64,000 bases of DNA, from the NCBI GenBank assembly GCA_001302245.1, contig LGYU01000005.1:1-64000 (forward strand). The letters run 5' to 3'. Below, one piece after another: positions 20,553 through 31,031 of this stretch. The notes below the pieces were generated by a model. It saw only the letters and a list, made by a program, of their open reading frames with translations, was not told where the DNA came from and searched no databases. This DNA comes from Chitinophagaceae bacterium PMP191F (GTDB taxonomy: Bacteria; Bacteroidota; Bacteroidia; Chitinophagales; Chitinophagaceae). Each line of letters starts with the position of its first letter. The first letter of the stretch is position 1. A program made the position numbers and the translations under genes.

Positions 20553-21689
20553 ATGTCAGACAGCTTGCATATTGCGGATTTTCTCCACCCCGTTCATCTG
20601 GGAATGTTGTCGGGTGATGAAGGATATAAGGACGGACAACTTGGAAAAAAAATAGATGTATACGAAGAACAACTTCCGGATGTGTTACAGGCAGATATTG
20701 TACTGGTAGGATGCGCAGAACAACGTGGCAGCGGTATCGGCAAAAAAAGCAGTAATGCCCCGGATGCTATCCGCGAACAGTTCTATGCCCTGTATGGCTG
20801 GCACGACAATATCCGGCTGGCCGATATAGGCAATGTTAAAACCGGTGCTTCACTTACAGATACGTATGCTGCCTTAAAAACAGTGATCACCGAACTGATC
20901 GCGATTGATAAAACAGTTGTGATACTGGGTGGTTCGCACGATCTTACCCTTGCACAATATGGTGCCTACCGCGATCGCAAACAGGTTATTGAGGCAGCGT
21001 GTATTGACTCACTGATTAACCTGGATATAGATTCACGCAAACGCGACCTGAATTTCCTGATGGAAATGCTTACCGGTGAGCCCAATTTTATCCGTCATTA
21101 TAATCATATCGGTTTTCAGAGCTATTATGTACATCCCGGCATGCTGGAAACCATGGACAAATTGCGGTTCGATTGTTTCCGGGTGGGACAGATCCGTGAA
21201 AACATCGAGGAAATAGAACCTGCTATACGCAGTTGTGAACTGGTAAGTTTTGATATCGCTTCATTGGCCAATGCGTACGCGCCTGCCAATATAGTTACAC
21301 CCAATGGTTTTACCGGAGAAGATGCCTGTGTCCTGATGCGTTATGCTGGATTGAGCCCGCACATGAATACATTGGGTATCTATGGTTACGAACCTCAGCG
21401 CGATCAGCATAACCTTACTGCCAAACAGATCAGTCACATGCTATGGTACCTGGTAGATGGAAGAAGTCGCGCCAAACGCGAAGCCAGCCTTGAACAACGC
21501 GAGTTCTTCAACGAATTCCATATTGCCTTTGCAGAAATAGATACCATGTTTCTTCAAAGCAAAAAAACAGGCCGCTGGTGGATGCAGTTGCCGGATAAGA
21601 AATTCATCCCCTGCTCATATAAAGATTACATGCTGGCCAGCAGCAACGAAATTCCTGAAAGATGGTTCAGGGCGCAGGAGCGGGATTAA
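20553..21689 (+). CDS. Arginase/formimidoylglutamase-fold protein with eroded metal site
   Basis: A 378-aa ureohydrolase-fold protein (a start 18 bases upstream at 20535 is also possible). Nucleus of the fold is visible as VILGGSHDLTLAQYG, INLDIDSRKRD and VSFDIASLANAYAP. In active arginases these read GGDHS, DAHxD and SxDxD. Here His129, Asp158 and Asp234 remain, but the DAH His is Asp160, the DAHxD Asp is Arg162 and the second Asp of SxDxD is Ala236, so the two-metal centre looks incomplete. Bacteroidota homologs are commonly annotated formimidoylglutamase; catalysis should not be assumed. No histidine-degradation genes are nearby. Confidence 0.82.
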   Translation: MSDSLHIADFLHPVHLGMLSGDEGYKDGQLGKKIDVYEEQLPDVLQADIVLVGCAEQRGSGIGKKSSNAPDAIREQFYALYGWHDNIRLADIGNVKTGASLTDTYAALKTVITELIAIDKTVVILGGSHDLTLAQYGAYRDRKQVIEAACIDSLINLDIDSRKRDLNFLMEMLTGEPNFIRHYNHIGFQSYYVHPGMLETMDKLRFDCFRVGQIRENIEEIEPAIRSCELVSFDIASLANAYAPANIVTPNGFTGEDACVLMRYAGLSPHMNTLGIYGYEPQRDQHNLTAKQISHMLWYLVDGRSRAKREASLEQREFFNEFHIAFAEIDTMFLQSKKTGRWWMQLPDKKFIPCSYKDYMLASSNEIPERWFRAQERD

Positions 21690-21862
21690 TGTGCAGATTT
21701 GCCAATGTGGGGTTGATGGTTGCTTTTTTATTTCTTGTTTTAATTTTTTTCACCGCAAAGAACGGCTACCCAAGCATCAGGCGTTCAGCGTTCAGCAGAT
21801 TCTCTGTGATAGGCCCTCACATTACGCACCATTTAATTTGCACATTATCTTATATTGCTGGT

Positions 21863-23209
21863 ATGAAAAGGAATACCACACTCCCGGTACTGTTTGTATT
21901 GTTTCTGGCAGCCTGTTCACCACAGCAATTCATCAGTAAACAGGCCAAACAATCCATACTTACCGATGCTGCATTGACACGTGCGCATGTCGGGATCAGT
22001 GTATACGATATTGCCGATAATAAATACCTGTACAATTACCAGGGCGATCATTATTTTGTTCCTGCTTCCAATACCAAAATTGTTACCTGCTATGCAGGTA
22101 TGAAATACCTGGGCGATAGTTTGCCCGGCATTCAGTACTGGCAGGAAAAAAACAATATTTACCTATTGCCCACCGGAGATCCCAGCCTGCTGCACCAGGA
22201 CTTTACCCGTCAGCCGGTCATTGATTTTCTGAAAAAGACTACGGCCAAAGTTTACATTACAGATGCTACCTGGAAAGATGAAGCACTTGGCAATGGCTGG
22301 AGCTGGAACGACTACAATGATTACTACATGGCCGAGCGTAGTCCACTGCCGGTTTATGGTAATGTACTGCACTGGATCCAGGAAAAAAACGAAACTGCCG
22401 ACCAGGATACCAGTACCGGTTTTGACCAGTCTGTACTGATCTACTCTATACCAGAAGTAAACTGGAATGTTCGCTTTACCCCGGAAGGGGGTAAAAAAGT
22501 TTTTTTTGTACAACGCAATTATGCAGACAATACTTTCAACATCACACAGGGTACAGAAAAGAAAAAAGACCAGGAAGTACCTTTTGTTACCAATGGTCTG
22601 CAATCGGCACTGGAACTACTACCCGATACCATTGGCAAAAAGATCGCTGTTGTAAACAAAGTACCCGCAGCAGGCACTCCGTTGAATACTATTCACTCGC
22701 AGCCCACTGATTCATTGTTCAAACCAATGATGTACCGCAGCGATAATTTTTTTGCAGAACAAACATTGCTGATGGTAAGTGCTGCGAAACTGGGTGTGCT
22801 GAGCGACCGCAGGATCATAGATACTTTATTAAAAACCGATCTGCTTGATCTTCCTCAACAACCACGTTGGGTAGATGGGAGCGGCCTGAGTCGTTTCAAC
22901 CTGTTCTCTCCACAGGATTTTGTAGTGATCCTGCGCAAAATGCAACAGGAAATAGGCATGGATCGTATTAAAAAGATCTTCCCGACAGGTGGTTCTGGAA
23001 CATTAAGCAATTACTACAAACAAGATAGCGGCTTTATTTATGCCAAAACCGGTTCTCTTTCCGGCGTACTGGCATTAAGCGGCTACCTGTATACCAAAAA
23101 GAATAAACTGCTGGCATTTTCAGTGCTGATCAACAATCACCAGGGCAATGCAACTGCTATCCGCAAACAGGTAGAAACATTCATTACACAGATCAGGGAA
23201 CAATACTAA
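21863..23209 (+). CDS. dacB: D-alanyl-D-alanine carboxypeptidase/endopeptidase (PBP4 family), lipoprotein
   Basis: Peptidoglycan-trimming serine peptidase of the S13 (PBP4/DacB) family, 448 aa. The start at 21863 gives a lipoprotein signal ending in the lipobox LAAC, so the protein is anchored to an envelope membrane. Active-site motifs are complete: SxxK as PASNTK, SxN as YRSDNFF, and KTG as YAKTGSLSG. The frame remains open upstream to 21662, overlapping the arginase-like gene, but that part lacks sense as protein start. It is 173 bases downstream of the arginase-like gene on the same strand. Confidence 0.93.
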   Translation: MKRNTTLPVLFVLFLAACSPQQFISKQAKQSILTDAALTRAHVGISVYDIADNKYLYNYQGDHYFVPASNTKIVTCYAGMKYLGDSLPGIQYWQEKNNIYLLPTGDPSLLHQDFTRQPVIDFLKKTTAKVYITDATWKDEALGNGWSWNDYNDYYMAERSPLPVYGNVLHWIQEKNETADQDTSTGFDQSVLIYSIPEVNWNVRFTPEGGKKVFFVQRNYADNTFNITQGTEKKKDQEVPFVTNGLQSALELLPDTIGKKIAVVNKVPAAGTPLNTIHSQPTDSLFKPMMYRSDNFFAEQTLLMVSAAKLGVLSDRRIIDTLLKTDLLDLPQQPRWVDGSGLSRFNLFSPQDFVVILRKMQQEIGMDRIKKIFPTGGSGTLSNYYKQDSGFIYAKTGSLSGVLALSGYLYTKKNKLLAFSVLINNHQGNATAIRKQVETFITQIREQY

Positions 23210-23627
23210 AAGCAGCATCAGCACCAGAATTATCATTTTCCGGCAGTTTCATATTAAAAATATTCAACCTGGAATAGCGTATTGACGGTAACCCCTGGTC
23301 AGCCCGGAAAGCAACTTCATAGATTTTTGGCAAAAAAGGTACCTGCGCTCCCAACGCCCGGCTCTCTTTGTGGCGTATATTAGTTGTATTGTGCTATATG
23401 GAAAAAATAAGTAAACTTTAAGAAAGGCGCTTATCTTCCTTATAACCTTATATATGAAAACATTAACAGACCTACAACCTGTTGCCGGCCTGTGCCTACC
23501 ATTCGGGATCTCATGCAAGCAAAATAATCCTGTCTTTGTAACCGTTGATGTACAAGGACCGTTTTTGCACACATTTACCTGAAAGAGCAGCACAGCATTT
23601 TGCCCCGACAGGCCACTTAAAATAACG
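23210..23627. other. Spacer upstream of the sigma factor gene
   Basis: No recognised gene. One short frame from ATG 23454 to TGA 23582 encodes 42 residues (MKTLTDLQPVAGLCLPFGISC at its start, containing two Cys), but nothing supports its being translated. A near-consensus TGTCTTTG at about 23531 could be a promoter box. The opposite strand has a longer open frame running into the sigma factor gene which looks like a shadow. Confidence 0.4.
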
Positions 23628-24173
23628 GTGTATTTGGCGTTAAGTGACGATGAAATAGCATTGGTAAACGGTTGCATCAGCAATAGCCGTAAGGCCCAGG
23701 AAGTACTGTACAAGCAGTTCTATGGACCAATGCTCTCTATTTGCCTACGCTACACCCGTAATGAAGAGGATGCGATTGAAGTGTTGCATAACGGTTTTTT
23801 GAAAGTGTACAAAAACATACATACCTACAATGCCGCCAAGGCATCATTGTATACCTGGATACGTACCATTGTTGTACATACTGCCATTGATTTCATCCGA
23901 CAAAAAGGCAAATTTCAGACAATAGAACTGGAGAAAGCAGAAGAACCTGCCATTGACGCAGATGCCATACAACGTATGTCATCACAGGAGTTGCTGCAGT
24001 TGGTTCAGCAGTTATCGCCCGCCACCCGCACCGTTTTTAATCTGTATGTAATCGAAGGATATAACCATCGTGAAATAGCTAACCTGATCGGCATCAGCGA
24101 AGGCACCAGCAAATGGCACCTGAGTGAAGCCCGTAAACAACTGAAACAATTATTACAAACATTGCAAGTGTAA
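23628..24173 (+). CDS. ECF-type RNA polymerase sigma factor
   Basis: Sigma-70 family group 4 factor of about 181 aa. Region 2 contains LYKQFYGPMLSICLRYTRNEEDAIEVLHNGF (residues 27-60), and region 4 has SPATRTVFNLYVIEGYNHREIA followed by the HTH IGISEGTSKWHLSEARKQL. There is no ATG; GTG at 23628 or TTG at 23634 (giving MALSDDE, the commoner beginning in the group) are the candidates. The next gene starts 4 bases after its stop, so the two are translationally linked; its product has a transmembrane segment and may be the anti-sigma factor. Confidence 0.92.
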   Translation: MYLALSDDEIALVNGCISNSRKAQEVLYKQFYGPMLSICLRYTRNEEDAIEVLHNGFLKVYKNIHTYNAAKASLYTWIRTIVVHTAIDFIRQKGKFQTIELEKAEEPAIDADAIQRMSSQELLQLVQQLSPATRTVFNLYVIEGYNHREIANLIGISEGTSKWHLSEARKQLKQLLQTLQV

Positions 24174-24177
24174 CGTA

Positions 24178-26043
24178 ATGAATGAACGGCAACCATACGA
24201 GAAACACTTGGCAGATAAACTGCAGCATCTTCCGGCACCGTCAGGCGCCAATCGCTCGTGGGAGCAGATGCGGGCAATCCTGGATAAGGAATTGCCGCGT
24301 GGCGGAAGTAGTGGTGGAAGCGGCGGAGGCGGGCGCTGGTGGATATTCGGCGCCATGACAGCCCTCGTATTCCTGGGTACCTGGCTTACAGGTAAACAGT
24401 TTTCCCCGCCCAATCACCGGCGTTCTGCTACAGCGGCCGCATCTGCCAACGACAGTAGTGTCAGGGCAACCGGGTCACCACCCATGGCGTCACTACCAGT
24501 TACAGCGCCTGAAAGCACTGCAGCCAAACCGGTATTGTCATACAATGAACAACCGTCAGCTAAAAACAACAATAAACCCCTTGCGGATGATTCTATTCTA
24601 CACAACAACCCTTCTTCAGACAATACTGTAACCAATACTGCCGGTGCAGGAAAAACACCCGGCAACAATCATACAACAACTGGTAACAGCACAGGTGACC
24701 ATACCGTTATCTCAGAAAATGCTGCCGGGAATAACAGTGTGCCTGCCGGGAATGCAGCTACTGCATCCAAACCCGGCAACAACACATTGCCATCGAACAA
24801 AACACCTGTATCGCACAGCAATCCATCGCGTACATCCCATTCGCGTACACGAAGCCGTGGAGACAATACCAAACCTTCCACTGCGGATGTTGCCCGTAAT
24901 AACAGATCACCCAAAAACAAACCCGGTAATAACCGTAACAGTACAGCCATCACATCCAACCATCCGGACAGATCGCGTTACACACAGTCAAACAACCGTT
25001 CCAATACAGGACGTGGTGCCGGAAATATTGCAGCTACCAATAAAAAGCAGCAGGGTAACAACCAGCAAAAAACCGGATATAGTGCAGGCAAAGAAGCACC
25101 TGTATCCAGCAATAATAACGCTGTTACAACTCCTGTACAAAGACCATTGAACAGTTCGCTGGTGGCAGTACCATCTGTTGCCGGTATTGTTCCGGAGCCA
25201 GCTTCAGTACTGGAAGATTCCGTTACAGCCAATTACAATGATTACGTAAATACCATGTTCCCAGCACCACCTGTTGCTGCAACTGCCAACAGGAAAAAAG
25301 GCCGTTCATTTGGAGAAGGAGCGCCCGGTACTTTTGCAATAGGCATTACGCTTCCCATGAATTTACCTATCAACGACCAGGTAGCACTTGGACTTAACAG
25401 GAATGCAAGACCCAATACGTTGTCAGATTTTCTACCATCGCTGAACCTGCAATACCGTTTGACCACCCATGCATTTGTACAGGCTGAAGTACAGTTTTCT
25501 TCACCACAGTACATCAGCCCGCTATTGATGTACCAACGCAAACAGGATTTGCCTTTCACAGCCTCGTATGCCTATACATCCATTTCAGCACGCAAACTAT
25601 ATTATTTCAACCTGCCGCTTACAGTGCACTACAGCCCGGTACCTGGTTTGTACCTGGGAGCGGGTATACAATACTCAGCATTGCTGAGTGGGGTTGCGTT
25701 ATCAGAAAAGAAACAATCCTGGGGCGGTGGCCCTGGTGGTGGTCCGCGTGAAATGACGATCAAGTATGAGTACAGCAAGTTCAGTCACGATTCATTATCA
25801 TGCATGCTCAAAAGCACCGACTGGCGCCTGGTGCTCGACTTTAATTATTACTGGAATCGCTTTACGGTAGGTTTCCGTTATAACCAGGGGTTATCAGATT
25901 ATGCAGATTTCCGCATTGCCAACAGCCCTTATGCTGTGCGTGACAAGAACAAGGCAACACAATTCTATGTGCGTTACAATATCTGGGAAGATCGCAAACG
26001 CAATAACAGAAAAAGCAATAAAAACCTGTTAACGTTTAAATAG
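24178..26043 (+). CDS. Trans-envelope protein: cytoplasmic segment, TM helix, Asn/Ser/Thr-rich linker, outer-membrane barrel domain
   Basis: A 621-aa protein made of four parts. Residues 1-42 (MNERQPYEKHLADKLQHLP, NRSWEQMRAILDKELP) are a cytoplasmic segment of the type found in Chitinophagaceae proteins encoded next to ECF sigma factors. Residues 54-71 (WWIFGAMTALVFLGTWL) form one transmembrane helix. Residues 80-375 are low complexity, rich in Asn, Ser, Thr, Gly and Lys/Arg, with hardly any hydrophobic residues. Residues about 385-610 look like an outer-membrane beta-barrel (PorT/OmpA-like) domain with alternating aromatic strands. The arrangement could join cytoplasm, inner membrane and outer membrane in one chain. 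It lies 4 bases behind the sigma gene; its last 15 bases overlap convergent mutL. Confidence 0.8.
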   Translation: MNERQPYEKHLADKLQHLPAPSGANRSWEQMRAILDKELPRGGSSGGSGGGGRWWIFGAMTALVFLGTWLTGKQFSPPNHRRSATAAASANDSSVRATGSPPMASLPVTAPESTAAKPVLSYNEQPSAKNNNKPLADDSILHNNPSSDNTVTNTAGAGKTPGNNHTTTGNSTGDHTVISENAAGNNSVPAGNAATASKPGNNTLPSNKTPVSHSNPSRTSHSRTRSRGDNTKPSTADVARNNRSPKNKPGNNRNSTAITSNHPDRSRYTQSNNRSNTGRGAGNIAATNKKQQGNNQQKTGYSAGKEAPVSSNNNAVTTPVQRPLNSSLVAVPSVAGIVPEPASVLEDSVTANYNDYVNTMFPAPPVAATANRKKGRSFGEGAPGTFAIGITLPMNLPINDQVALGLNRNARPNTLSDFLPSLNLQYRLTTHAFVQAEVQFSSPQYISPLLMYQRKQDLPFTASYAYTSISARKLYYFNLPLTVHYSPVPGLYLGAGIQYSALLSGVALSEKKQSWGGGPGGGPREMTIKYEYSKFSHDSLSCMLKSTDWRLVLDFNYYWNRFTVGFRYNQGLSDYADFRIANSPYAVRDKNKATQFYVRYNIWEDRKRNNRKSNKNLLTFK

Positions 26044-27951
26044 CTGTTCTAAATAATCTTTTTTAAACTCGATGTAAGTGGGATTGCCTGACGCAGTAAT
26101 ATTTGGCTGACGGCAATTGAACAGTTCCGTGATGAGGCTGCGCATTTCCTGTACTGCCAGCATACGGCCTGGTTTGATAGCCTGTTGCCATGCCAGAGAA
26201 CGGATCACTTTTTCACGACGTGAATATTTAAGATCACTGCTGAAATGCTTAAACTGTTCCAGCAGATTTTCTATCACTACTTTTTCATTGCCGGGTTCCA
26301 CATCAGCCGGTGTTCCCTGTATTACAAAAGCATTGCTGCCAAAGGGTTCAATAATATATCCCAGCTGTTGCAGATCAGGTACCAGTTCTGTCAGCAATAC
26401 GGCATCCTGTGCAGCCAGTTGCAGGGTTACCGGGAACAGGCTGCTTTGCGCAGCCATGGCTTTCCCCAGCGTAGCACTCATAAAGCGCTCGTACAAAATA
26501 CGTTCGTGGGCCAGTTGCTGATGTACCAATATAAACCCACGGTTGCTGGGCACTACGATATAAGTATTGTGCAATTGCGAGCACACAGCATCTTCATCGA
26601 TGGTAAGTGCATTGAGGGAGGAACGTGGAACAGTATAGGAAAAATCCTGCACCGGCTCTTCCTTTTTCAGTTTATCCAGCAGCGATTCAAATTTCTCTTC
26701 ACGTTGGCCAGTGCCTGTTAAATCACCACCTGTTTGCCGGTTTTCAGTCTGCTGACCGGAAGGTTCAAAAAAATCTTTCCAGTGCTTCAGTTCACTTTTA
26801 TTGTCGGCAGGTTGTATAAAGTGCGACTGGTGTTTTTGTGTAAAATTCTTGTACAACGAAGAATCGCGGGCTGCCGCCTGCTGTTGTTCTGTAAAAGGTT
26901 TGCTTACCGCATCCAGTTGCTGAATAGAGGGATCAAGATCAAATTCCAGCGTAGGTGTTACACTGAACTGTGCCAGCGCATGTTTTACAGCAGCCTGCAC
27001 AAATGCGTACACGATCTTCTCATCTTCAAACTTGATCTCCTGTTTGGTGGGATGCACATTGATATCCACCTGCGCAGGATCAAGATCAATGAACAACACA
27101 TACAGCGGAAAACTGTCAGCTGCGATCATTTCCTGGAATGCATTCATCACTGCGTGATGCAGGTAACCACTGCGGATAAACCGGTTGTTCACAAAAAAAT
27201 ATTGGTCGCCACGTGTTTTTTTTGCAGTATCCGGTTTGCCTACAAAACCATAAATATTGAGATAATCCGTTTTTTCCTGCACATTTACCAGTCGTGCATT
27301 GTAATGATTGCCCAGCACCTGAACAATACGCTGTTTCAGGCTGCCTTTTTCCAGGTGAAAAACTTCCTGTCCGTTGGTAGTAAGCGAGAAAAAGATATTG
27401 GGGAACGACAATGCTACGCGGATAAACTCTTCCACAATATGCCTGGTTTCCGCCGCATTGCTTTTCAGAAAATTACGTCGTGCAGGTACATTGAAAAACA
27501 GGTTTTTCATGGCAATGCTGGTACCATTTACAGTAGCCACCGGCTCCTGCCGGATTACCACGCTGTTTTCCACTTCAATATAAGTACCAGTCTCATCTTC
27601 CGCCCTTTTGGTTTTCAGCTCTACCTGTGCTACCGCAGCAACGGATGCCAGTGCTTCGCCACGAAAACCCATGGTGCGGATCTGGAAAAGATCGTCAATA
27701 TTGCGGATCTTGGAAGTGGCATGGCGCTCAAAACACATACGTGCATCCGTTTCACTCATGCCCTTGCCATTATCGATCACCTGTATCAATGCCTTACCGG
27801 CATCGCTAATAATCAGTTTAATTTCAGTTGCGCCTGCATCCACAGCATTTTCCAGCAACTCTTTTACCGCACTGGCCGGACGCTGTATCACTTCTCCTGC
27901 TGCTATCTGGTTAGCAATATTATCGGGCAATAATTGTATAATATCTGGCAA
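26029..27951 (-). CDS. mutL: DNA mismatch repair protein MutL
   Basis: ATPase that links MutS to downstream strand removal. The GHKL ATPase domain (residues 1-330) is complete: ELLENAVDAGATEI, DNGKGM, TMGFRGEAL and the NVHPTKQEIKF strand. A poorly conserved linker (340-440) leads to the C-terminal dimerisation domain. There the endonuclease motif DQHAxxE appears as LVHQQLAHERILYE, with the Asp replaced by His and the His by Gln, and the later Cys motifs read LAWQQAIKPG and CRQPNITASGNPT. The nicking site is therefore degenerate compared with B. subtilis-type MutL. Length 640 aa is normal. Confidence 0.96.
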   Translation of the reverse strand: MPDIIQLLPDNIANQIAAGEVIQRPASAVKELLENAVDAGATEIKLIISDAGKALIQVIDNGKGMSETDARMCFERHATSKIRNIDDLFQIRTMGFRGEALASVAAVAQVELKTKRAEDETGTYIEVENSVVIRQEPVATVNGTSIAMKNLFFNVPARRNFLKSNAAETRHIVEEFIRVALSFPNIFFSLTTNGQEVFHLEKGSLKQRIVQVLGNHYNARLVNVQEKTDYLNIYGFVGKPDTAKKTRGDQYFFVNNRFIRSGYLHHAVMNAFQEMIAADSFPLYVLFIDLDPAQVDINVHPTKQEIKFEDEKIVYAFVQAAVKHALAQFSVTPTLEFDLDPSIQQLDAVSKPFTEQQQAAARDSSLYKNFTQKHQSHFIQPADNKSELKHWKDFFEPSGQQTENRQTGGDLTGTGQREEKFESLLDKLKKEEPVQDFSYTVPRSSLNALTIDEDAVCSQLHNTYIVVPSNRGFILVHQQLAHERILYERFMSATLGKAMAAQSSLFPVTLQLAAQDAVLLTELVPDLQQLGYIIEPFGSNAFVIQGTPADVEPGNEKVVIENLLEQFKHFSSDLKYSRREKVIRSLAWQQAIKPGRMLAVQEMRSLITELFNCRQPNITASGNPTYIEFKKDYLEQLFKR

Positions 27952-28091
27952 AACGCTTCTCCTTATTTTATCTGCGAAAATACGGGAATAATCCCGTGCT
28001 ACCGGTATTCAAAAACATACTGTTTATCAATCCGTAAACACCTATATTACTGTTTCTTCTTAATTTGTGCACTAAGCTGATACACAAAGTT

Positions 28092-31031
28092 ATGATGATG
28101 AAAAAACTACTGACGGTTATTGCCATGGTTACGGGTTTTGCCGCCTATGCACAGCAAACCAGCGATCCCTATGCTGATAAATGGGTAGACAGTGTATTTA
28201 AAAGTCTTACCAAAGAACAGAAGATCGCCCAGTTAATGGTGGTCAGGTTATCCACACTGGGGCCCAACAAAAGCGTAGTATGGCTGGATAAGGAAACTGA
28301 AGAAGCGATCCGCAAATACAATATCGGTAGCATTTGCCTGTTCCAGGGAGGACCCGTTAAACAGGCAACACTCATCAATTACTTTCAGCAGATTGCACAA
28401 ACTCCTTTGCTGATTGCCATTGACGGTGAAACCGGTGTTGGCATGCGCATGGACAGTGTAATGGCATTATCCCGGCAAATGACGCTGGGCGCCATGCAGG
28501 ATGCTACCCTGGTATATGAGTACGGTAAACTGGTGGGTGAACAGTGTAAACGCATCGGCATCCAGGTAAACTACGCTCCGGTAGTAGATATCAATAACAA
28601 TCCTGCCAACCCAGTTATCAACGACCGTTCTTTCAGCGAAGACAAATATCGTGTGGCAACTTATGGCATTCAGTATATGCGCGGTTTGCAGGACGCCGGT
28701 GTAATGGCCTGCGCCAAACACTTTCCCGGGCATGGTGATGTGGCTGTTGATTCTCACCTCGATCTGCCTGTGATCAACAAATCCATGCAGCAACTTGATT
28801 CACTGGAATTGTATCCCTTCCGCGAGATAATCAAAGCAGGTGTAGGCAGTATGATGGTAGCACATCTTTCTATTCCTGCCATCGACAATACGCCCAATAA
28901 ACCAACTTCTATCTCTTACAACAACGTTACCAAACTGTTGCGCAACGATCTGAAATTTGACGGACTGACCTTTACCGATGCACTCGAAATGAAAGGGGTC
29001 AGCAAGTTCTATCCTGATGGTGATGCATCGGTAGAAGCATTGATTGCCGGTAATGACATGCTGTGTTTGCCTGGCGATATTCCTGCCAGCATTGATAAGA
29101 TCCAGAAAGCGATCCGCAAAAAGAAACTGAAATGGGCAGATATTGATGCACATGTAAAACGTGTATTGTATGCCAAATACAAATATGGACTGGCTAATTG
29201 GCACCCTATTGAACTGGAACATCTTACAGAAGACTTAAACAATAAAGTAGCAGATATGCGCAGACTGGTAGCAGAAAACGCCATTACCCTGTTGCGCAAT
29301 GATGATCCGTTGATCTATCCGCTTACCCGTCGCAAACGCATTGCATACGTAGGATTTGGTCTTACGGAAGACAATACATTCTCCAGGCTGATGCGTAAAG
29401 AGTTCAATGCACAGGTGTATTATTTTGATTACACGCTTGACAGCAGTAAAGTGCCAGCCATGCTGGAATTGTTCCGCGGACGTTATGATGTGGTGATCCT
29501 GGGTGTGCACAACTACTCACGCTATCCGGCTAACAACTTCGGTATCAGCGCTGCCGCACAGTCATTGATAGAAAGTCTGCAGCACCAGCAAAAAACCATT
29601 ACGGCAGTATTTGGCAACCCATATGTTATCAAAAACATGTGTAGTTCACCAGTACTGGTAGCCTGCTATGAAGATGATAGTGTAACACAAGCTACAGCAG
29701 CTAATTTTATCAACGGACGTTTTACCGCCAAAGGCAAATTGCCCGTTACAGTATGTGAATCGTTCAAATATGGCGACGGTATTATTGCCCAGCGCCTGCT
29801 GCCTGCCACGCCGGCTGCACAACTGGGTTTCAAACAGGCGCAACTGACCAATGCTATTGACTCCATTGTTACAGACGCCATTGCCAAACAAGCTATTCCC
29901 GGTGCAGTGGTGCTGGTAGCCAAAGATGGTAAGATTGCCTATGAACGGGCATTCGGTTACCTGACCTATGATAGTACGGAACCTGTTTATCCTGAAACCA
30001 TTTATGATCTGGCATCTGTTACCAAAATCATGGCCACTACATTGTCTGTAATGAAGTTGTATGATGAAGGTAAACTGGATCTGCAAAAAACACTGGGTGA
30101 TTACCTGCCCTGGGTACAGGGTTCTAACAAAGCTGGTTTGAAATTATGGGATGTGTTACTGCACCAGGCCGGTCTGAAAGCATTCATTCCTTTTTACAGC
30201 GAAACGCTGGATAAAACAAAACCCAACACACCGCCACTATACAGCATATACGCACGGTTCCCGGACAGCACCCACAGCATCCGCGTGGCAGAAAACCTGT
30301 ACATGCGCAATGACTGGACAGACACATTGTACAAAAGAATATTACAAAGCGAGCTGGGACCGCAAGGTAAATATGTATACAGCGACAATGACTACATTTT
30401 CCTTGGAAAGATCGTGGAAGCTATTACCGGCATGACGCTGGATCAGTATGTAAAGAAAACTTTTTATGATAAAATGGGACTTGCCACTACCGGTTTCAAA
30501 CCACGTGACAGGTTTCCGTTAAATTATATTGCACCTACAGAAAAAGAAATTGCCTTCCGCCAGCAACTGTTGCAGGGTGATGTACATGATCCGGGAGCAG
30601 CCATGTTTGGTGGCGTGGCAGGTCATGCCGGTCTGTTCAGCAATGCATACGACATTGCTGTAATAGCACAGATGTTACTGAATGGTGGCGTAATTGGCGG
30701 ACAGAATTACCTGCGCAAAAGCACCATTGATTATTTTACAGAATACCATAGTGACAATAGCCGCCGTGGACTGGGTTTTGACAAACCGGAGAAAGACAAT
30801 GCAACCCGTAAAGATCCGTACCCCACATTATCAGCATCGCCTCTTACTTACGGACACACCGGCTTTACGGGCACTTGCTTTTGGGTTGATCCGCAATACA
30901 ACCTGATTTATATTTTCCTGTCCAACCGTGTGAACAGTCCCAACACCAATAAGTTTTTACAAATGAACGTACGTCCCAAAGTGCACGAAGCTATTTACAA
31001 TGCACTGGGCATACCTTCTTATAAGCCCTAA
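28092..31031 (+). CDS. Fusion of GH3 beta-N-acetylglucosaminidase (NagZ-like) and beta-lactamase-type serine hydrolase, exported
   Basis: A 979-aa exported enzyme starting at one of three consecutive ATG codons (28092, 28095, 28098), with signal peptide ending AYAQ. Residues about 30-370 are a GH3 domain of NagZ type: AKHFPGHGDVAVDSH holds the characteristic Asp-x-His dyad (Asp220, His222) and TDALEMKG the nucleophile Asp296. Residues 385-570 fit the GH3 C-terminal domain. Residues about 585-970 are a class C beta-lactamase/DD-peptidase-like domain with Ser642-x-x-Lys645 (SVTK), a YSD in place of the usual YxN, and HTG. The pairing suggests muropeptide processing in the periplasm by removal of GlcNAc plus peptide or ester hydrolysis. 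It is monocistronic and followed by a strong terminator. Confidence 0.9.
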   Translation: MMMKKLLTVIAMVTGFAAYAQQTSDPYADKWVDSVFKSLTKEQKIAQLMVVRLSTLGPNKSVVWLDKETEEAIRKYNIGSICLFQGGPVKQATLINYFQQIAQTPLLIAIDGETGVGMRMDSVMALSRQMTLGAMQDATLVYEYGKLVGEQCKRIGIQVNYAPVVDINNNPANPVINDRSFSEDKYRVATYGIQYMRGLQDAGVMACAKHFPGHGDVAVDSHLDLPVINKSMQQLDSLELYPFREIIKAGVGSMMVAHLSIPAIDNTPNKPTSISYNNVTKLLRNDLKFDGLTFTDALEMKGVSKFYPDGDASVEALIAGNDMLCLPGDIPASIDKIQKAIRKKKLKWADIDAHVKRVLYAKYKYGLANWHPIELEHLTEDLNNKVADMRRLVAENAITLLRNDDPLIYPLTRRKRIAYVGFGLTEDNTFSRLMRKEFNAQVYYFDYTLDSSKVPAMLELFRGRYDVVILGVHNYSRYPANNFGISAAAQSLIESLQHQQKTITAVFGNPYVIKNMCSSPVLVACYEDDSVTQATAANFINGRFTAKGKLPVTVCESFKYGDGIIAQRLLPATPAAQLGFKQAQLTNAIDSIVTDAIAKQAIPGAVVLVAKDGKIAYERAFGYLTYDSTEPVYPETIYDLASVTKIMATTLSVMKLYDEGKLDLQKTLGDYLPWVQGSNKAGLKLWDVLLHQAGLKAFIPFYSETLDKTKPNTPPLYSIYARFPDSTHSIRVAENLYMRNDWTDTLYKRILQSELGPQGKYVYSDNDYIFLGKIVEAITGMTLDQYVKKTFYDKMGLATTGFKPRDRFPLNYIAPTEKEIAFRQQLLQGDVHDPGAAMFGGVAGHAGLFSNAYDIAVIAQMLLNGGVIGGQNYLRKSTIDYFTEYHSDNSRRGLGFDKPEKDNATRKDPYPTLSASPLTYGHTGFTGTCFWVDPQYNLIYIFLSNRVNSPNTNKFLQMNVRPKVHEAIYNALGIPSYKP

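Follow-up and report, generated by a model that had tools for sequence, protein, structure and literature searches.

A cytoplasm-to-outer-membrane anti-sigma factor of the Dma/Reo kind predicted beside an ECF sigma factor gene in Chitinophagaceae

Background

Can a single polypeptide connect the outer membrane to a sigma factor in the cytoplasm? The question is raised by two adjacent genes of Chitinophagaceae bacterium PMP191F, which lie in a stretch of 64,000 nucleotides (assembly GCA_001302245.1, contig LGYU01000005.1, positions 1 to 64,000 of the forward strand) that is called the window here. A first, sequence-only reading had placed an ECF sigma factor gene and its partner at 23628-26043. 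It had described the partner as a short cytoplasmic motif, one transmembrane (TM) helix, about 300 disordered residues rich in Asn, Ser and Thr, and an outer-membrane β-barrel. In the FecI-FecR system, as in this reading, a TM anti-sigma factor holds the sigma factor and control comes from the outer membrane. However, FecI-FecR needs a separate TonB-dependent receptor, whereas in the window the barrel is part of the presumed anti-sigma chain.

Results

Both open reading frames are found at these positions and the first encodes the Pfam domains of a sigma factor. The features of the locus are:

21662..23209, + strand: dacB-like D-Ala-D-Ala carboxypeptidase, upstream, a gene of its own (PF02113, 1.2e-51), conserved upstream in many relatives
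23350..23377, + strand: predicted ECF-type promoter of the operon, from the conserved upstream motif CCCAAC[CG]N16-17CGTA
23634..24173, + strand: ECF sigma factor gene, 179 aa (Pfam Sigma70_r2 and Sigma70_r4_2; start from start-codon comparison)
24178..26043, + strand: predicted Dma/Reo-like anti-sigma factor gene, 621 aa, 4 bp after the sigma stop (pairing in 26/26 relatives)
24178..24297, + strand: residues 1-40, predicted cytoplasmic sigma-binding head (two AlphaFold helices, conserved motif)
24337..24393, + strand: residues 54-72, predicted single inner-membrane TM helix (AlphaFold; hydrophobic at the same place in homologues)
24394..25329, + strand: residues 73-384, predicted disordered Asn/Ser/Thr/Pro/Gly-rich tether of 312 aa (low pLDDT)
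25330..25989, + strand: residues 385-604, predicted eight-stranded outer-membrane β-barrel (PF13568, AlphaFold, Foldseek)
26029..27951, - strand: mutL, downstream and convergent (MutL domains), conserved in most relatives

The 3' ends of the anti-sigma gene and of mutL overlap by 15 bp (26029-26043). Further downstream, at 28065-31031, a protein of 988 aa was read by eye as a GH3 hydrolase with a serine β-lactamase-like domain; it belongs to the conserved neighbourhood.

The sigma product matches regions 2 and 4 in Pfam (Sigma70_r2 at 4.5e-15, Sigma70_r4_2 at 7e-14), only the ECF superfamily lies above the cut-off in NCBIfam, and its orthologues are 39-82% identical to it. TTG at 23634 is more likely the start codon than the GTG at 23628 with which the reading frame is listed, because its position is kept in relatives. 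ECF promoters generally have AAC in the -35 and CGT in the -10 element. In the window a CCCAAC (23350-23355) and a CGTA (23374-23377) are separated by 18 bp and followed by a leader of about 257 bp up to the likely sigma start. Of 27 orthologous loci, 15 have the motif CCCAAC[CG]-N16-17-CGTA in the 400 bp ahead of the sigma start, where 0.05 would be expected (elsewhere there are 3 matches in 676 kb); because these loci also served to define the motif, the figure is descriptive, although the margin is large. Such a conserved ECF-type motif ahead of the sigma gene suggests that the operon is autoregulated. A regulon beyond the operon itself is not claimed because CCCAACSN16-17CGTA is not in excess in the own genome (12 matches versus 11 for the reversed control), and many of the genome-wide matches are inside coding regions. 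Scans for sigma-70 promoters and terminators were no better than those of shuffled sequences, and the Rfam search gave no match.

Structure prediction had been proposed as a check on the partner, and an AlphaFold model built from an alignment of 27 sequences (window and 26 homologues) reproduces the expected order of head, TM helix, tether and eight-stranded barrel. The head consists of two helices (residues 7-16 and 25-38) and carries the motif PYE..LA.KL..LP.P......W..M...LD..MP. After 53 residues follows the TM helix, whose hydrophobicity is modest in the window (Kyte-Doolittle 1.33; 1.2-2.7 at the same place in homologues) and which has positive charges on both sides, so that neither topology is favoured. 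The tether is about as long as had been estimated (312 aa) and is disordered, with a pLDDT mostly below 50 over residues 75-353 and 79% disorder-promoting residues, and it contains no Cys. The strands of the barrel are modelled with a pLDDT of about 95 in an OmpA/OmpX-like arrangement. PF13568 (OMP_b-brl_2) is the sole Pfam match of the partner (36.9 bits, cut-off 27), and the top Foldseek matches among solved structures include the eight-stranded outer-membrane barrels OmpA, OmpX, Ail and OmpW. When the full partner alignment was used as a profile against solved structures, only low-complexity tethers were matched.

Among 200 genomes searched within the family, 30 have a match to the partner at E <1e-10, the own genome counted. 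Judged by gene order, its pairing with the sigma factor is not chance, because in all 26 relatives with flanks read it directly follows an orthologous sigma gene, usually at a distance of a few bases. The arrangement of an agmatinase-like gene, dacB, sigma factor, partner, convergent mutL and GH3 is preserved as a whole or in part at most loci. W28, M31 and L35 of the head and several positions of the barrel are invariant in the 27 sequences, and none of the 26 relatives has lost the barrel. The mean pairwise identity among the homologues is 42% for the head and 35% for the barrel but 12% for the tether, which varies between 150 and 362 aa (median 234) and never contains Cys. Such free variation beside a conserved head and a conserved barrel is what is expected of a spacer. 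Because pairing, ends and gene order are conserved while the tether diverges, the locus is old and vertically inherited, its two stable ends being joined by a spacer that changes fast. Allowing for mutL, the distances of the sigma factor correlate with those of the barrel (partial r 0.76) and of the head (partial r 0.57) across 15 related taxa, which fits co-diversification but is not proof of contact.

The own genome contains 70 Sigma70_r4_2 matches. Barrel-type partners accompany three further sigma genes, one on contig C34 and two on contig C66, giving four such pairs with the window. These three are the clear paralogues among 52 other sigma-partner reading frames, to which a few shorter proteins with a similar head can be added. 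The view that short cytoplasmic segments of this type are common beside sigma genes in Chitinophagaceae therefore finds little support. In most of the other sigma partners examined the TM helix begins about 70-110 residues into the protein, which is a FecR-like layout. A reading frame of 508 aa on contig C30 with a long barrel match has a signal peptide and is of plain OmpA type; it was rejected as a sigma partner.

When 84,980 species genomes were scanned with the alignment of the sigma factor, 80 loci were obtained, three of them on contigs already in the family set, and 76 partners, the one in the window included, were scanned for domains. PF13568 was found in 24, PF13505 in six and PorP/SprF in two. 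One of the partners, L230:4551-6083, combines head and TM helix with a fused PorP/SprF barrel (PF11751, 1.2e-17). Nineteen partners are short and have no recognised outer-membrane module. L221:4519-5106, L232:4483-5154 and L247:4543-5145, as well as the Mucilaginibacter loci L237, L259, L269, L276 and L293, encode partners that retain this head and TM helix but lack such a module and are about 200-265 aa long.

Five of the 76 partners contain PKD together with CHU_C, the T9SS type-B sorting domain, at E <0.001; CHU_C scores above the Pfam cut-off in L241, L267 and L277 and below it in L291 and L266. The same head and TM helix are followed by PKD and a T9SS type-B end in L241:4556-5905, L267:4538-5803, L277:4569-5843 and L291:4518-5801, while L266:4542-5921 is a weaker fifth sigma-adjacent case. 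A head profile trained on the barrel-type and other long partners, with these five left out, recovers four of the five at 26-36 bits, whereas 2000 shuffled heads reach 9.7 at most; L266, with 2.7 bits, is missed. In the model of the L291 partner the two head helices and the TM helix recur, at low confidence, and are followed by a tether, PKD folds and a domain at the C-terminus. Directly after the sigma gene and the T9SS-type partner of L266 lies a gene for a large PKD-like surface protein (L266:5932-8523), whose product is a candidate target or ligand of this sigma system. A phylum search with a T9SS-type protein returned unrelated PKD proteins only, the head being too short to dominate such a search.

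Discussion

The idea of one chain that links a sigma factor to the outer membrane thus stands with respect to architecture and pairing but not with respect to its novelty. In Bacteroides thetaiotaomicron, Dma1 and Dma2 are encoded next to the genes of their ECF21 sigma partners Das1 and Das2 and consist of an N-terminal anti-sigma domain, one TM helix, a long disordered tether and a C-terminal β-barrel (PMC13088901). The phenotype of a dma2 deletion requires the sigma factor das2 (PMC13088901). In Phocaeicola vulgatus (M0N98_03761/03760) a barrel-containing anti-sigma factor that is predicted to span the periplasm is encoded downstream of the sigma gene; its disruption turns the regulon on, so that the sigma factor is restrained by it (PMC9308784). 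Expression of the sigma gene rises 33-fold upon exposure to a toxin that binds the lipid A-core, and many of the genes induced also respond to a BamA inhibitor (PMC9308784). The Phocaeicola pair was later named EcfO-Reo, a pair also of Bacteroides fragilis, with outer-membrane stress proposed as the signal (PMC13114119). The statement of the sequence-only reading that the coupled function is not established is therefore out of date, given that genetics of Dma and Reo in Bacteroides and Phocaeicola show both restraint of the sigma factor and induction by envelope damage.

Head, single TM helix, disordered tether, barrel and adjacent ECF sigma gene, the features by which Dma is described, are all found in the window pair, the likeness being one of description. 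The pair is a member of the Dma/Reo kind, which is already known in Bacteroides and Phocaeicola, and is new to this bacterial lineage. It differs from Dma in lineage and neighbourhood, dacB and mutL being those of the window; a regulon, a role in vesiculation and the ECF21 group go with Dma, and the NigD targets and gut setting of EcfO-Reo are features of Bacteroidales.

It is unlikely, although it deserves consideration, that the partner is an ordinary inner-membrane anti-sigma factor from which tether and barrel are split off by constitutive cleavage, leaving the two ends linked neither mechanically nor informationally. The tether is a likely protease target, and the short partners beside related sigma genes (L221, L232, L247), which share head and TM helix, imply that the head can work without a barrel. 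A barrel of so little consequence does not agree, however, with its retention in all 26 relatives and its diversification with the sigma factor, nor with Phocaeicola, where the toxin response and the barrel-containing anti-sigma factor are functionally tied (PMC9308784).

That the two genes are accidental neighbours and the partner has no anti-sigma function is very improbable: the binding of the head to the sigma factor rests on prediction, but the sigma gene stands directly upstream in every one of the 26 relatives, the predicted operon promoter is shared, and the same genome holds four such pairs. Surface signalling of the FecR type, in which the signal would arrive through a separate TonB-dependent receptor, would be in line with the abundant FecR-like TM positions among the other sigma partners of the genome. 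Yet the partner has no FecR domain in Pfam or NCBIfam, its TM helix follows 53 residues and not about 90, and no TonB-dependent receptor adjoins the pair, whose neighbours are dacB and mutL and whose barrel is fused on. The FecR/TonB identity was rejected on the domain content (Pfam, NCBIfam), and this mode of signalling is hardly credible here.

A single-chain anti-sigma factor reaching from the cytoplasm to the outer membrane, with predicted binding and topology, is the best reading of the partner. We give a probability of roughly 0.8 to the window pair being an ECF sigma factor and an anti-sigma factor of the Dma/Reo kind that is tethered to the outer membrane and releases the sigma factor upon stress. 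The first 40 residues would keep the sigma factor bound at the inner membrane, and the TM helix would lead into the disordered tether of about 310 residues that crosses periplasm and peptidoglycan to the eight-stranded barrel, placed in the outer membrane. At 0.36 nm per residue, even the shortest tether among the homologues (150 aa) reaches a contour length of about 54 nm, which is enough for a periplasm of 25-30 nm. From the relatives we infer that the sigma factor is inhibited and that outer-membrane stress is the signal. By analogy with Dma and EcfO-Reo, disturbance of the barrel or the outer membrane should free the window sigma factor: misassembly, loss or disturbance of the barrel, or damage to the outer membrane, would inactivate the anti-sigma factor, most likely by proteolysis that cuts the tether first and the TM helix next, which is a guess from other anti-sigma systems. 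The freed sigma factor would then act on its own operon through the CCCAAC-N17-18-CGTA promoter and on further targets.

The partners with other far ends point beyond this scheme. In those of the T9SS type, possibly anti-sigma factors, the T9SS would carry the C-terminal end out to the cell surface; in the literature searched, with partial coverage, no description of T9SS-sorted anti-sigma factors was found. PorP-like outer-membrane proteins are binding partners of proteins sorted by the type-B route (PMC9143113), and therefore all three partner types could end at the outer membrane. A tentative idea, to which we give slightly less than even odds, is that the outer-membrane anchor is interchangeable, which would couple a sigma factor to the condition of the T9SS or of the T9SS-decorated surface.

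Conclusions

The system in the window is not of a new kind, and the more novel lead is provided by the partner types outside it. The conserved locus of dacB, sigma factor, Dma-like gene and mutL together with its predicted promoter would make a ready reporter. Natural tethers of 150-362 aa, and partners that end in a barrel, in a T9SS-sorted domain or in no such module, may offer a direct route to the part of the chain that senses the outer membrane. With the window pair, the Dma/Reo principle would extend from the gut Bacteroidales to a large environmental family.
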